Source: Microvirga sp.
GTDB taxonomy: Bacteria; Pseudomonadota; Alphaproteobacteria; Rhizobiales; Beijerinckiaceae
Reading direction: 5' to 3'
Assembly (NCBI GenBank): GCA_031181145.1
Contig: JAPSLB010000004.1
Location: forward strand, 1 to 64,000
Length of the DNA: 64,000 nt
Shown here: positions 1-33,827 of the stretch, one piece after another
How the letters are laid out: every line of letters starts with the position of its first letter
Numbering within the stretch: the first letter of the stretch is position 1
Notes under the pieces: generated by a model
Told to the model about the DNA's origin: nothing
Seen by the model: only the letters and a program-made list of their open reading frames with translations
The model's database searches: none
Translations under genes and position numbers: made by a program

Positions 1-538
1 TCTGCGGATCGCGCAGAAACTCCACCACCTCCTGCAGATCCTCCTTCGCCTCGTCGATCCCCGCCACGTCGTCAAACGTCACCCGGCCATGCGCCTCCGT
101 CAAAAGCTTCGCCTTCGACTTGCCGAAGCCCATGGCGCGGCCGGCGCCGTTCTGCATCTGCCGAGACAGGAACACCCAGGCGCCGATGAAGAGCGCGATG
201 GGCAGGATGTTCATGAGAACGGCGATGAACCAAGGGGTCGAATCGGATTGCGGACGGGCCGTGATCTGGACGCCCTTCTGCTGCAGCTTCGCGACCAGGT
301 TGGGGTCGTTGGGCGCGTAGGACGAGAAGGTACGGCCGTCGTTATAGGTGCCGCTGATCTCCGGGCCGGAGATGATGACGCTCGTGATGCGCCCGGCATC
401 GGCGTCATTCAGGAGCTGGCTGTAGGCGATGTCGCTGCCGCCGCCGCGTTGGCCTGGGCTCTGGAAAAGGGTGACGAGCGCCAGCACCAGCAGGAAAATG
501 ACAACCCACAAGGCGAAGTTGCGGAAATTTGAATTCAT
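1..538 (-). CDS. ftsH: ATP-dependent zinc metalloprotease FtsH, N-terminal part (cut by window edge)
   Basis: Translation from the ATG at 538 gives about 179 residues before the left edge. A short N-terminal membrane segment (about residues 8-24) is followed by a periplasmic domain of about 75 residues, a second membrane segment near residues 104-122, and the linker TFDDVAGIDEAKEDLQEVV that leads into the AAA+ domain. This is the standard FtsH order. The AAA+ and M41 zinc-protease domains lie outside the window. FtsH is a membrane hexamer that degrades misfolded membrane proteins and short-lived regulators. It lies 153 nt downstream of tilS on the same strand, a frequent arrangement in alphaproteobacteria. 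No strong Shine-Dalgarno is seen before the ATG. Confidence 0.96.
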   Translation of the reverse strand, partial: MNSNFRNFALWVVIFLLVLALVTLFQSPGQRGGGSDIAYSQLLNDADAGRITSVIISGPEISGTYNDGRTFSSYAPNDPNLVAKLQQKGVQITARPQSDSTPWFIAVLMNILPIALFIGAWVFLSRQMQNGAGRAMGFGKSKAKLLTEAHGRVTFDDVAGIDEAKEDLQEVVEFLRDPQ

Positions 539-7096: not shown

Positions 7097-8254
7097 TCAG
7101 GAAAGATCGAACTGGACGTTCAGGATCTTCCAGTCCGAGTAAAACTGCATGTACTGGGACGGCACGCGATAGGGAGCGCAGCGCCGAACCGCGCGCAGGG
7201 CGGCGCTGGCCACGGCTTGGTCCGTGCTGCTGCTGCCGGCGCGCAGAACGGTCGGTTCGCTAGCGAGCGAACCGTCCTGGTTCAGGCGGATGTCGAGCAG
7301 CGGCGGCGTTCCGTCGCCCCCCGAGGCACTGATCGGCGCGGTGTAGCAGCGCTGGATCTGCTCCTGCAGGATGCCCATGAGCGCATCGCGCTGGCTCGGA
7401 TTGAGCTTCGCGGCCGAGCCGGTCGCGGTACCAAGGGAAGCGGTCTTTTGAACCTCGGTCCCAGTGGCTCCGCTCGACTGGCTCTTCTGCTTGTTGTCGA
7501 GGAACTGCTTGAGGTCGCCCATGTCGAGCTTCTTGGCCACCTGCGCTTCCTTGCGCGCCTTCGCCTCCGCTTCGGCCTTGGCTTTGGCTTCCGCGATCCT
7601 CTTGGCTTCCGCTTCTGCCTTCGCCTTGGCTTCGGCCTCCGCTTTCGCCCTGGCCTTCTGCTCGGCGACGCGCTTTGCTTCGGCGTCTGCCTTCGCCTTG
7701 GCCTCGGCCTTTGCTTTCGCCTCCGCTTCGGCCTTGGCCCGTTCGGCGGCCTTCGCCTTCTCGATGGCTTCGGCCTCCGCCTTCTCGGCCATCTTCCGCT
7801 CTTCCTCGGCCTTGGCTTCGGCGGCCTTCTGCTCGGCTGCCCGCGCCGGAGGAGGCGGTGGAGGCGGCGGGGCCGCAGCCGCTTCTTCCGCCTCGGCCAC
7901 CTTCATGTCCTCGGGACGCTTGGGCGGGGCGGGCGTGTCGAGCTTGTCCTCGCCGGGGGCGCGCTGCTCGGTCTTGTCGGCGATGCGGTCGGCGCGGGGC
8001 TTGGGCGTGGGCTGCACCGATTTGGCGTCCGTCTCGCCCTTGGTGATCTGCGAGAACTGGTTGTCGGTAATGACCTCGACCGGGATGCCCTCCTGCGCCT
8101 CGGGAAACTCGGAGGCATGAGGCAATCCGATCAGAGCGGCCGTCAGCAGCGCCACATGCGCGACGCCGGAAACCCAGAAGCCCGGTTCGGAGGGGTTGAA
8201 ACGATCCTTCAACGCCACGTGTCTTTGCCCCTTGTCTGTGCCCCTTGCGCTCAT
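7097..8254 (-). CDS. tolA: Energy-transducing protein TolA
   Basis: 385 residues. A single membrane anchor lies at about 26-46, a Pro-rich stretch (including PPPPPPPPAR) at about 130-140, then a long Ala/Glu/Lys helix at about 140-250 (domain II, built from repeats like AEAKAKAEAEA), and a C-terminal TonB-like domain from about residue 280 with LNPSQRDALMGILQEQIQRCY. TolA spans the periplasm and transmits proton-motive force from TolQR to TolB and Pal. It starts 5 nt after tolR. Confidence 0.95.
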   Translation of the reverse strand: MSARGTDKGQRHVALKDRFNPSEPGFWVSGVAHVALLTAALIGLPHASEFPEAQEGIPVEVITDNQFSQITKGETDAKSVQPTPKPRADRIADKTEQRAPGEDKLDTPAPPKRPEDMKVAEAEEAAAAPPPPPPPPARAAEQKAAEAKAEEERKMAEKAEAEAIEKAKAAERAKAEAEAKAKAEAKAKADAEAKRVAEQKARAKAEAEAKAKAEAEAKRIAEAKAKAEAEAKARKEAQVAKKLDMGDLKQFLDNKQKSQSSGATGTEVQKTASLGTATGSAAKLNPSQRDALMGILQEQIQRCYTAPISASGGDGTPPLLDIRLNQDGSLASEPTVLRAGSSSTDQAVASAALRAVRRCAPYRVPSQYMQFYSDWKILNVQFDLS

Positions 8255-16251: not shown

Positions 16252-16261
16252 ACGTGCGGAG

Positions 16262-16411
16262 CCACAAAAGCCGTCGGAGAAGCGATCCCGGGAACCTACA
16301 AAGTAGGTGGGCGCCGTATGTCCCGGCCCACGGACCGGGTCAGGGACAGCTCCCTTCAGGATCGATAAGGCCCCGGGGAATATGAACTCCTAACGCGCCC
16401 CGCAGCCCCGC
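16262..16411 (-). ncRNA. ssrS: 6S RNA (SsrS), predicted
   Basis: Placed by synteny (between zapA and the cyclo-ligase gene, same strand) and by foldable sequence. On the minus strand ATCGATCC can pair with GGGATCG, enclosing a GC hairpin CCCGGTCCGTGGGCCGGG and an ACCTAC/GTAGGT hairpin, and TTAGGAG can pair with CTTCTCC nearer the ends. This leaves an open central region like the RNA polymerase-binding bubble of 6S RNA. 6S RNA sequesters the sigma70 holoenzyme in stationary phase. The ends are approximate, inferred from a promoter upstream and the cyclo-ligase ATG downstream. Confidence 0.7.
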
Positions 16412-30739: not shown

Positions 30740-31273
30740 TCACTCCGTCGGCGCGAAGGCCTTTTCCAGCAGGCCGATCTGGGCCGCCACCGGGTTCTGT
30801 CCCTGCGGCTGCGGCGGCGCCGATTCCAGCTCCGAGAGGAGACGCTCGAGATGAAGGATGCGGGCGTGGAGGCGGGTCGCGAGCCCGATCAGCTCCCGCA
30901 GGCGCGCCGGGAGGGCCTCGTATTCCACAAGCGTGGTGGCGGTCTCAGTCGAGTTCAGGCGCACGCGCGCCTTCTCGGCGCGGGCCTGGTCCGAGGTAAT
31001 CTCGCCCTCGGCGACGGCCCGCTGGAGCAGAAGCCAGGAGGCGATCTGCATGAGGCGGGTGGTCAGGCGCATGCTCTCGCTTGCATAGGCCACGCTCGCC
31101 TCACGCCGAAGAAGCCGCGATTCCTCACGGCCCTGGCCGTCGAGGTAAGCGGCTGTTTCCTCGACCAGCTCCATTCCTTCCTGGAACAGCGCCGTGAAGG
31201 CCTCAGACCCCACAAAGCTCTGCCCGAAGCGGACAGGGTCCATGTCTAGTTTGATCACGTCGGGTTCGCTCAC
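30740..31273 (-). CDS. rcdA: RcdA-family protein (DUF1465), CtrA degradation adaptor
   Basis: 177 residues, mostly helical, with a disordered Pro/Gln tail. Family-like stretches include FTALFQEGMELVEETAAYL, MRLTTRLMQIASWLLLQRAV and RLHARILHLERLLSEL. The DUF1465 family contains Caulobacter RcdA, which helps the ClpXP protease destroy the cell-cycle regulator CtrA. Upstream on its strand lie a near-consensus CtrA box (31365-31380) and, further back, an exact one (31530-31545), which fits CtrA feedback. Family membership is clear; the adaptor role here is inferred. Confidence 0.85.
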   Translation of the reverse strand: MSEPDVIKLDMDPVRFGQSFVGSEAFTALFQEGMELVEETAAYLDGQGREESRLLRREASVAYASESMRLTTRLMQIASWLLLQRAVAEGEITSDQARAEKARVRLNSTETATTLVEYEALPARLRELIGLATRLHARILHLERLLSELESAPPQPQGQNPVAAQIGLLEKAFAPTE

Positions 31274-31364
31274 CCACCGTCTCCCAAGACGCTTCGCCTG
31301 GCTCCTCGCCAGGCAATGTTCGATGTCGGAAGGAAATATAGAACGAGCGCTTGCAGGATGCTCA

Positions 31365-31380
31365 GGTAACCTCTTCTTAA
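31365..31380 (-). promoter_or_regulatory. Near-consensus CtrA box upstream of rcdA
   Basis: Minus-strand TTAA-GAAGAGG-TTACC, one base off the CtrA consensus TTAA-N7-TTAAC, about 95 nt before the rcdA start codon. Confidence 0.45.
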
Positions 31381-31402
31381 GGTTAAGCGCGAGAAGTCCG
31401 AC

Positions 31403-31428
31403 AAAAAACGAGCCGCGCGGGGCGGCTC
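31403..31428 (-). terminator. Intrinsic terminator of the putative sRNA
   Basis: 7-bp stem GAGCCGC/GCGGCTC, 5-nt loop, then G and TTTTTT on the minus strand. It could also simply end DUF1192 transcripts. Confidence 0.85.
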
Positions 31429-31509
31429 TTCAAGTCCAACAGGGAGGCGTCGAATAAGAGTGGGAGGAAGAACCACTCGGAGTGTCCAGCGGGAGAAGAC
31501 CGGACACCC
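31403..31509 (-). ncRNA. Putative trans-acting small RNA with CU-rich (anti-Shine-Dalgarno) loops
   Basis: The minus strand of the DUF1192-rcdA gap folds into three hairpins. Hairpin 1: stem GGGTGTCC/GGACACTC with loop GGTCTTCTCCCGCT. Hairpin 2: stem GAGTGG/CCACTC with loop TTCTTCCTC. A single-stranded GCCTCCCTG follows, then a terminator stem GAGCCGC/GCGGCTC with six T. The loops are complementary to Shine-Dalgarno sequences, a design seen in rhizobial sRNAs such as the alpha-r14 class. An exact CtrA box lies about 20 nt upstream, where an activator would sit. The ends are approximate. No coding potential is seen. Confidence 0.6.
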
Positions 31510-31529
31510 TCATCAAGCGCTCTGAACCG

Positions 31530-31545
31530 TTAAAAACACGTTAAC
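31530..31545. promoter_or_regulatory. Exact CtrA box
   Basis: TTAA-AAACACG-TTAAC on the plus strand (TTAA-CGTGTTT-TTAAC on the minus) matches TTAA-N7-TTAAC exactly on both strands. It overlaps the last codons of the DUF1192 gene and stands at a promoter-like distance from the putative sRNA on the minus strand. Confidence 0.75.
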
Positions 31546-31747
31546 CTTGACCGAGCCGGAAGAAGGCGCTGGCAGCGGCGCGGGAATTTTCCTTGGCGGC
31601 CTTCGCCTCCTTCAGGCGGGCGATTTCCTTTTCCAGCAACGCAACACGCTCGTCGAGCTCATCCACGGAGAGCATCGACAGGTCCTGGCCGATCTCATGG
31701 GCACTCAACGCGGTCCGCGGTTCGTCGGCGAAGGGATCGAGGGCCAT
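31541..31747 (-). CDS. DUF1192 small coiled-coil protein
   Basis: 68 residues with the DUF1192 pattern MLSVDELDERVALLEKEIAR, an acidic N terminus and a short leucine-heptad helix. The function is unknown. GGAGGAGAATGCC precedes the ATG. Divergent from the quinone oxidoreductase gene. Confidence 0.88.
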   Translation of the reverse strand: MALDPFADEPRTALSAHEIGQDLSMLSVDELDERVALLEKEIARLKEAKAAKENSRAAASAFFRLGQG

Positions 31748-32966: not shown

Positions 32967-32995
32967 TTGCAACATCGCCCCACGCTCCCTATAAT
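32967..32995 (+). promoter_or_regulatory. Strong sigma70-type promoter for trcR
   Basis: TTGCAA, exactly 17 nt, then a perfect TATAAT. It predicts a start near 33003 and a leader of about 110 nt that contains two small palindromes (CTCACAATGTGAG and CTCCGGTCCGGACCGG). Confidence 0.7.
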
Positions 32996-33113
32996 CATCT
33001 TGTTTCCCTCACAATGTGAGACGAGATGCTCCGGTCCGGACCGGTTCGGAGCGCAAGAGAGTTTTGCCGTGCGGCGCCGATGTCCGGTGCCCGGCTCCAA
33101 GGAGGTTCGCCCC

Positions 33114-33827
33114 ATGTCCCAGGGACCGCTGATGCCGAAGGCGACGGCCGTTTGGCTCGTCGAGAACACATCCCTGTCGTTCGACCAGATCGCCGATTTC
33201 TGCAAGCTCCACCCGCTCGAGGTGAAGGGCATCGCGGATGGCGAGGTTGCGGCAGGCATCAAGGGACTCGACCCGATCACCACGGGCCAGCTGACCCGCG
33301 AGGAAATCGAGAAAGCCCAGGAGAACCCCAATCATCGCCTGCGCCTCGCCGAATCGCGGGTGAAGCTGCCCGAGCAGAAGCGGGTGAAGAAGGGTCCGCG
33401 CTACACCCCCGTCTCGCGCCGTCACGACCGCCCCAACGCGATCCTCTGGCTCGTGCGCAACCATCCCGAGCTCAAGGACGCGCAGATCATGCGCCTGGTG
33501 GGCACCACAAAGACCACGATCCAGCAGGTCCGCGACCGCACCCATTGGAACTCGGCGAGCCTCACCCCGATGGATCCGGTGACGCTCGGCCTGTGCTCGC
33601 AGATCGACCTGGATTTCGAGGTGCAGCGCGCCGCCAAGGACCGTCCGCAGGTGGAGCCGCAGGAATACGGCGGCACCCTGATGCCGGCCGAGGTCACCAC
33701 GGCCGAGCCCACTCGCGACGAGCCCTTCGCCGACATGAGCCGCCCGAAGCCTCAGGAAGACGATATCGACGTGAACTCGGTCTTCGCCAAGCTCAAGCAG
33801 CTCAAGCGCTCGGACGACGAGGAATAA
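33114..33827 (+). CDS. trcR: Cell-cycle transcriptional regulator TrcR (DUF1013)
   Basis: 237 residues from the ATG at 33114, which has AAGGAGG upstream; the in-frame extension to 32967 is leader. Characteristic DUF1013 text: PKATAVWLVENTSLSFDQIA, then RPNAILWLVRNHPELKDAQI and GTTKTTIQQVRDRTHWN, which look like two helix-turn-helix-type segments, and an acidic tail ending in SVFAKLKQLKRSDDEE. TrcR is a conserved alphaproteobacterial regulator associated with cell-cycle transcription. It is 1.8 kb from rcdA and the CtrA box. Confidence 0.88.
   Translation: MSQGPLMPKATAVWLVENTSLSFDQIADFCKLHPLEVKGIADGEVAAGIKGLDPITTGQLTREEIEKAQENPNHRLRLAESRVKLPEQKRVKKGPRYTPVSRRHDRPNAILWLVRNHPELKDAQIMRLVGTTKTTIQQVRDRTHWNSASLTPMDPVTLGLCSQIDLDFEVQRAAKDRPQVEPQEYGGTLMPAEVTTAEPTRDEPFADMSRPKPQEDDIDVNSVFAKLKQLKRSDDEE

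Follow-up and report, generated by a model that had tools for sequence, protein, structure and literature searches.

A small RNA gene with a CtrA-type promoter box beside rcdA in Microvirga and its relatives

Between a DUF1192 gene and rcdA in a Microvirga sp. contig lies a terminated small RNA gene preceded by a CtrA-type box, an observation that is confirmed in the sequence and is beyond chance by comparison. It was studied within a window of 64,000 nucleotides, by which we mean the whole stretch of DNA analysed. An earlier note had proposed a terminated small RNA with its own CtrA-type-box promoter beside rcdA; comparison of homologues bears this out as to sequence, structure and position, and with them come the terminator, the conservation of the box and the synteny. 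Taken as a whole, the explanation that we consider probable is that of an independently transcribed, trans-acting small RNA (sRNA) of about 105 nt, made from a CtrA-box promoter and pairing with Shine-Dalgarno regions. CtrA as the binder, activation as its effect and action in trans on ribosome binding sites are the parts of this explanation that we infer.

In the mechanism proposed, the CtrA box would lie over the -35 region of the RNA promoter, and such a promoter would cause the RNA to be made when phosphorylated CtrA is abundant. Transcription would end at the strong terminator before rcdA. The C/U-rich linker (GACGCCUCCCUGUU) would then base-pair with the Shine-Dalgarno regions of several mRNAs, with help from the loop of the second hairpin in many lineages, and translation of the paired mRNAs would be lowered, giving CtrA a post-transcriptional arm.

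Anatomy, conservation and family of the RNA

Read directly from the letters of the window, the RNA gene consists of two hairpins (SL1 and SL2), a C/U-rich linker and an intrinsic terminator, with a promoter of about 20 nt between the box and SL1 (Table 1). In this the earlier note described the locus accurately: the two stem-loops, the CCUCCC and the terminator are found within 107 nt with the positions and content it gave, the distance of about 20 nt from box to SL1 agrees with the sequence, and the neighbours it named match PF06698 and PF07323, the latter being DUF1465, which we take to be the RcdA family. Its loop for SL1, however, is smaller in the minimum free energy (MFE) fold than the 14 nt claimed. 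The MFE of a 123-nt stretch was -46.2 kcal/mol (z = -2.67), a value equalled by 3 of 200 shuffles. A mechanical open reading frame of 68 aa (31270-31476, minus strand) overlaps the RNA. Also near the sRNA, at 32967-33827 on the plus strand, is a gene for TrcR (PF06242), to which Pfam gives the name transcriptional cell cycle regulator.

Table 1. Features of the RNA locus, in positions of the window
Feature	Positions	Strand	Remarks
RNA gene	31403-31509	-	about 107 nt
CtrA-type box TTAACGTGTTTTTAAC	31529-31545	-	TTAA-N7-TTAAC on both strands; overlaps the end of the DUF1192 gene
Presumed -10 region GCTTGAT	31512-31518	-	weak in this genome; clearer in relatives
SL1	31480-31509	-	11-bp stem; loop CUUCUCCC in the MFE fold
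SL2	31458-31478	-	stem GAGUGG/CCACUC, loop UUCUUCCUC; stem covaries across relatives
Conserved linker GACGCCTCCCTGTT	31438-31451	-	contains anti-Shine-Dalgarno-like CCUCCC at 31442-31447; likely pairing seed
Intrinsic terminator GAGCCGC...GCGGCUC, then U-run	31403-31428	-	stem 31410-31428, then G + T6
Second CtrA-like site TTAAGAAGAGGTTACC	31365-31380	-	7/8 letters; between the RNA terminator and rcdA; possibly rcdA's own promoter
rcdA (DUF1465, PF07323)	30740-31273	-	CtrA-degradation adaptor family; context
DUF1192 protein (PF06698)	31541-31747	-	upstream neighbour; context

Homologous loci were gathered by blastn (L001-L025), by a pattern in which part of the linker and of the terminator is prescribed (L026-L143) and by covariance models (L144-L203). 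L202, L203 and the duplicate L185 stand outside the analysis, and L118, which gave no match, is apparently a coding sequence that the pattern picked up falsely. From 201 matches, leaving out L026 (cut at its 5' end) gave 200 rows, and setting aside 4 with too little upstream sequence gave 196. Structure was judged on an alignment, A1, for which 62 representatives were chosen and 60 aligned, L111 and L138 being omitted; SL1, SL2 and the terminator are all retained in it. Since the pattern behind L026-L143 prescribes some of the linker and terminator columns, their invariance in A1 is in part an effect of how the sequences were chosen. Among 83 homologues found by similarity and not by that motif, 80 carry the TCCCTG linker.

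In this diverse set of 60 homologues, standard pairs make up 95.5% of pair cells, and two-sided changes occur in 10 of the 20 pairs. Such changes fill 48 cells compared with 12.3 +/- 3.0 in shuffles, and none of 500 shuffles reached any of five measures, with the proviso that relatedness of the sequences inflates the covariation counts. Sliding the partner register by 1-3 columns lowers pairing to 34-51%, a comparison biased towards the unslid register, because the structure was itself read from the sequences. The 48 cells are divided between SL1 (14), SL2 (18) and the innermost terminator pair (16), which 18 sequences leave unpaired; there is very little variation in the remaining seven terminator pairs. 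Both hairpins have compensatory base changes, and the structure is under selection. The SL1 loop is another matter. Its long CU-rich form is lineage-specific, and many relatives have short loops such as UCAU, so the earlier note's anti-Shine-Dalgarno loop in SL1 does not hold up as a conserved element. By a regular expression, CUCC or UCCU occurs in the SL2 loop of 93 of the 200 homologues.

At Rfam gathering thresholds over the window the RNA stretch had no match, the only one above cut-off being a 6S RNA (RF00013, 88.6 bits) at 16255-16411 on the minus strand. A permissive search, however, aligned the RNA with RF02356 (BjrC1505) at 45.4 bits (E 2.1e-7), the gathering cut-off being 50. Model positions 1-140 aligned along their full length, with SL2, linker and terminator in common, and a match to our own model, the box and rcdA are all present at the loci that score highest with RF02356 (L144-L158, L160). 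The two differ in that SL1 of the window RNA is longer with a CU-rich loop, and in that RF02356 counts the promoter and box region as RNA: its model starts about 40 nt further upstream, so that the box falls inside it, and pairs of the promoter-side 5' stem are largely non-standard in the window copy. As these first ~40 positions lie on promoter and CtrA box in the window, the Rfam model probably takes in promoter DNA as RNA; were its 5' end real, the box would be internal to the RNA. On this homology the RNA is best described as a divergent member of a catalogued family, below the formal Rfam cut-off, and not as a new family. This corrects the earlier note. BjrC1505 was reportedly described as a Bradyrhizobium sRNA by Madhugiri in 2012. 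In the open-licence literature searched, so far as its text was available, we found BjrC1505 only as a table mention in one paper and with no described function.

The family is widespread in the order. RF02356 was found at E <= 0.001 in 331 of 397 genomes sampled from it (287 above cut-off) and in 0 of 14 control genomes, a set that includes Caulobacter vibrioides. A covariance model of the RNA part only, R1, was built from the 60 sequences of A1; in the source genome it has a single match below E 0.01 (62.8 bits, E 1.1e-10), the next best being at E 0.0465. R1 matches occur in 38 of 41 genomes, including 24 of the 25 own or same-genus genomes, and homologues by DNA similarity in 25 of the 41 (own genome included). 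Sampling across the class gave R1 matches in 54 of 289 genomes, of which some near E 1e-3 may be chance. Carriers among the matches listed include Mesorhizobium, Phyllobacterium, Bosea, Microvirga, Roseibium, Hyphomicrobium and Devosia, with Sneathiella outside the order. The stretches compared for two named Microvirga loci, L132 and L137, look the same as those for L003 and L020 from the window's own genus, in keeping with a Microvirga origin. R1 also matches Shinella and Methylobacterium bullatum (50.5 bits with RF02356 for the latter), and had no match in Sphingomonas at E up to 1. A tblastn search of a plasmid collection led to a record labelled Sinorhizobium meliloti pSymB (3.7 Mb) with the order DUF1192-gap-DUF1465. 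With filters off, its gap matches R1 at 42.5 bits (E 2.5e-8), and RF02356 gave no match there at E up to 0.1. The S. meliloti gap has two perfect boxes, TTAACCGCAAATTAAG ahead of the RNA and TTAACCCTTTCTTAAG after its terminator, on the rcdA side.

Two loci carry tandem sRNA copies about 100 nt apart, L138 at 7514-7613 and 7714-7810 (minus strand) and L190 at 30-128 and 228-327 (plus strand); three of these four copies have a perfect upstream box, the fourth having no upstream sequence. Four further loci, L196-L199, have R1 matches with AAGCCTCCCTGT and a terminator, without box, rcdA or DUF1192, and are possibly another RNA family with a common linker-terminator module, as in SorX and SorY discussed below.

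The CtrA-type box and the genes around it

That the box is an exact CtrA site, as the earlier note read it, was verified on both strands: TTAA-N7-TTAAC lies at 31529-31544 (minus) and 31530-31545 (plus), with 0 matches in 100 dinucleotide-shuffled windows. It is the one perfect TTAA-N7-TTAA in the 64-kb window, where 8 other sites have one mismatch. Among the homologues, 189 of 196 have a box of at least 7 of 8 letters in the 70 nt upstream (107 perfect; the other 7 lack a box), and in 150 of the 189 its centre is 27-29 nt before the R1 model start. The same criterion is satisfied by 0.44% of 3425 random windows from the same loci and 0.92% of 865 windows of 74 nt before long open reading frames. 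When the A+T-rich upstream stretches themselves are dinucleotide-shuffled, 11.7% of 3920 shuffles satisfy it. The box occurs in 33 of 34 named taxa (hand-picked, one locus each) and in 47 of 51 representatives less than 75% alike. A logo of box-aligned homologues is circular for the TTAA positions themselves, which were used for selection; outside them the homologues share a C after the first TTAA (0.72), TT at 18-19 from the box start (0.70, 0.79) and TA at 26-27 (0.70, 0.79). In relatives a TA..T element thus occupies the -10 position, at 26-31 nt from the start of the box, and there is little conservation further upstream. At the window's own promoter, where the -10 is weak, a search for the sigma-70 consensus found no match.

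In Caulobacter promoters the CtrA site lies over the -35 region, and the near-fixed box distance together with the TA..T element fits such a placement here. The source genome has a CtrA orthologue (85% identity). Since a CtrA binding motif stands in the promoter of this putatively regulatory RNA, it is likely that CtrA controls it. Presence of ctrA and of the RNA does not coincide everywhere: G033 and G040, both incomplete genomes, carry the RNA with no ctrA passing E 1e-60, and G002 and G027 have ctrA without an R1 match. G002 is of the same genus, and its case is an apparent loss.

The motif could instead be the site of another factor, or one at which CtrA represses or silences, so that the RNA is not activated by CtrA. 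We think this improbable. The evidence that names CtrA is the motif, CtrA is known to repress promoters too, and the annotated 5' end of RF02356 lies upstream of the box, all of which speak for this reading. It has to contend with a spacing between box and TA..T element that fits activation over -35, and with a motif identical to the published CtrA consensus, TTAA-N7-TTAAC, as given in the available part of the source (PMC7200025). A very remote reading takes the box as part of the RNA, its two TTAA forming the short stem drawn in the RF02356 consensus structure. The Rfam family does put pairs in this region, and 129 of the 189 boxes could form all four pairs if G-U is included. However, 60 of the 82 one-mismatch boxes break a would-be pair with no compensating change (22 keep a G-U), which makes the box an unlikely RNA stem, and in the window copy that Rfam stem contains many non-standard pairs.

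The position before rcdA raises a different alternative, unlikely in our judgement, in which the RNA is a prematurely terminated rcdA 5' leader: a single CtrA promoter would serve rcdA, and the hairpins would be an attenuator or yield a leader-derived RNA acting mainly in cis. Synteny favours this: 174 of 200 rows have a same-strand rcdA no more than 600 nt downstream, or 167 of 188 when only rows with 700 nt or more of downstream sequence are counted. A same-strand DUF1192 gene lies no more than 700 nt upstream in 128 of 200, and the first 25 loci have both genes in every case. Leader-derived sRNAs are known, for example UpsM from the leader of the Rhodobacter sphaeroides dcw cluster, according to the portion of that paper available (PMC5089854). 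Furthermore, mapping of transcription start sites (TSSs) in S. meliloti accepted an sRNA with a same-strand gene downstream only if it began more than 300 nt from the start codon, as the accessible text of that study has it (PMC3616915); with the R1 start 278 nt before the annotated rcdA start, the S. meliloti RNA would be filed under rcdA as its leader. Against a leader, the distance separating the RNA from the aligned portion of rcdA ranges from 12 to 588 nt, L138 has tandem copies, and RNA and box also occur together elsewhere than beside rcdA. Neither rcdA nor DUF1192 is present at twelve loci whose sequence extends at least 400 nt upstream and 700 nt downstream; L196-L199 are the box-less ones, and the other eight keep the box, centred at -28 to -48 (L043, L039, L067, L101, L191, L193, L200 and L201, where L039, L067 and L191 are alike and not independent). 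Their neighbours include DUF2794 (L043), a dehydrogenase (L039, L191), valS/yebC (L200) and a PLP enzyme (L201). In L101 an AMP-binding enzyme lies upstream and a convergent SH3-domain gene downstream, so no leader is left to attenuate. Because the box stays with the RNA away from rcdA and DUF1192, once before a convergent gene, a stand-alone CtrA-driven sRNA is favoured over an rcdA leader. A leader also sits poorly with the second box: 84 of 173 RNA-rcdA gaps have one of at least 7 of 8 letters beyond the terminator, compared with 7% of length-matched windows. Roughly half of the loci would thus seem to have two successive CtrA-type promoters, the first serving the RNA and the second rcdA. 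The window has such a second site as well (Table 1), which amends the single-site picture of the earlier note.

Possible targets and likeness to known RNAs

For the stand-alone sRNA, the conserved CCUCCC of the linker and the CUCC/UCCU of the SL2 loop suggest pairing with Shine-Dalgarno regions, and blocking of ribosome sites by this putative sRNA is plausible. The RNA has what is looked for in anti-Shine-Dalgarno sRNAs, a conserved C/U-rich motif outside stable stems, and a weak third stem drawn by RNAalifold may place the CCUCCC in a loop. The earlier note's idea of C/U-rich pairing found no backing in target prediction on two candidate leaders: pairing was no better than shuffled with ctrA leaders (22 orthologues, mean z -0.19; rows for a few genomes, e.g., G003, are unreliable because the seed window ran into the terminator) or with rcdA leaders (117 non-redundant leaders, mean z -0.10). 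For gcrA leaders mean z was +0.83, from only 3 of 21 loci with a start codon found, which is too few.

A scan of the own genome for AACAGGGAGGCG with at most one mismatch gave 54 places, one of them the RNA's own antisense, as against 26 for the reversed control; among 30 loci inspected, 3 lay before an open reading frame of at least 80 aa, none convincing. A pattern resembling ribosome binding sites gave 104 places in 41 genomes versus 13 when reversed, an excess that Shine-Dalgarno likeness alone can give. Inspection of 30 of the 104 revealed no recurrent target except a homologous gene pair in close relatives, L313 and L320. These genes, which encode glycine-rich proteins in two same-genus genomes, begin with ACAGGGAGGCAGCAATG, which covers the ribosome site and is complementary to the sRNA linker over 10 nt; they represent a possible target in that lineage. 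As no target emerged from the ctrA, rcdA and pattern scans, the trans mechanism is argued from the anatomy of the RNA.

Several described RNAs resemble this one in part; what follows, where cited, reflects the sections of those papers that were available. CcnA of Caulobacter is a non-coding RNA that is putatively CtrA-activated, with a predicted CtrA site, and its CCCC loop is said to act on the ctrA and gcrA leaders (PMC8959179, PMC4287350). It is 182 nt long and located at the replication origin. The window RNA adjoins rcdA, its pairing with ctrA was no better than shuffled, and its family had no match in the control set with Caulobacter vibrioides; to judge from the published locus, CcnA is probably a different RNA. 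GspR and EcpR1 of S. meliloti, likewise sRNAs acting on cell-cycle genes, were rejected on their published loci: one lies between SMc03844 and SMc03845 and the other downstream of divK-pleD, respectively, GspR represses ctrA, and EcpR1 has a sigma-70 promoter stimulated by ppGpp (PMC5928217, PMC4414408). SmelA075 and SmelA099 have a C/U-rich anti-Shine-Dalgarno motif in common with our RNA and differ in having three or four hairpins, each with the loop CCUCCUCCC (PMC3927594). SorX and SorY of Rhodobacter (RF02784, RF02651) have CCUCCCUGUUGGAC(C/U)U beside the terminator; only this 3' part is alike, with scores of 20.8 bits against a cut-off of 46.6 and 18.6 against 111.

Sinorhizobium meliloti and the CtrA circuit

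Published work on S. meliloti offers a CtrA-depletion strain and CtrA ChIP data, and its available part places CtrA by ChIP-seq at the rcdA promoter, yet reports no response of rcdA to CtrA depletion and mentions no sRNA measured at this site (PMC4433202). A CtrA-driven sRNA in the rcdA gap could explain binding without an rcdA response. The second box, rcdA's own, may be an equally good place for the ChIP peak, and since many homologous gaps have a second box near rcdA, the peak may be that of the rcdA-side box. In agrobacteria, rcdA has several TSSs and the predicted CtrA sites of the genes studied are further upstream than those of Caulobacter, as stated in the accessible text (PMC10469942). 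Caulobacter has 6 non-coding RNAs among its CtrA-bound, cell-cycle-regulated TSSs according to the part of the report at hand (PMC4287350), so that CtrA control of RNAs is not new as such. Our search of open-licence literature, within the text accessible there, found no link between BjrC1505 and CtrA or between an RNA of the rcdA locus and CtrA.

A broader reading, which we put forward tentatively and with more doubt than belief, is that this sRNA family is a conserved post-transcriptional output of CtrA in Hyphomicrobiales and some neighbouring orders, silencing mRNAs in CtrA-high cells, with a separate box driving rcdA and the ChIP signal at S. meliloti rcdA coming partly from the RNA's promoter. 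On the same tentative footing, that promoter would have passed unnoticed in S. meliloti because annotation rules fold the RNA into the rcdA leader. Should CtrA control of the RNA hold, a catalogued RNA family would acquire a regulator and be placed within a well-studied circuit, and the CtrA regulon in Hyphomicrobiales would include an RNA arm, as proposed for Caulobacter's CcnA. The RNA may be a hidden part of the CtrA circuit, adjoining a gene that aids the destruction of CtrA.
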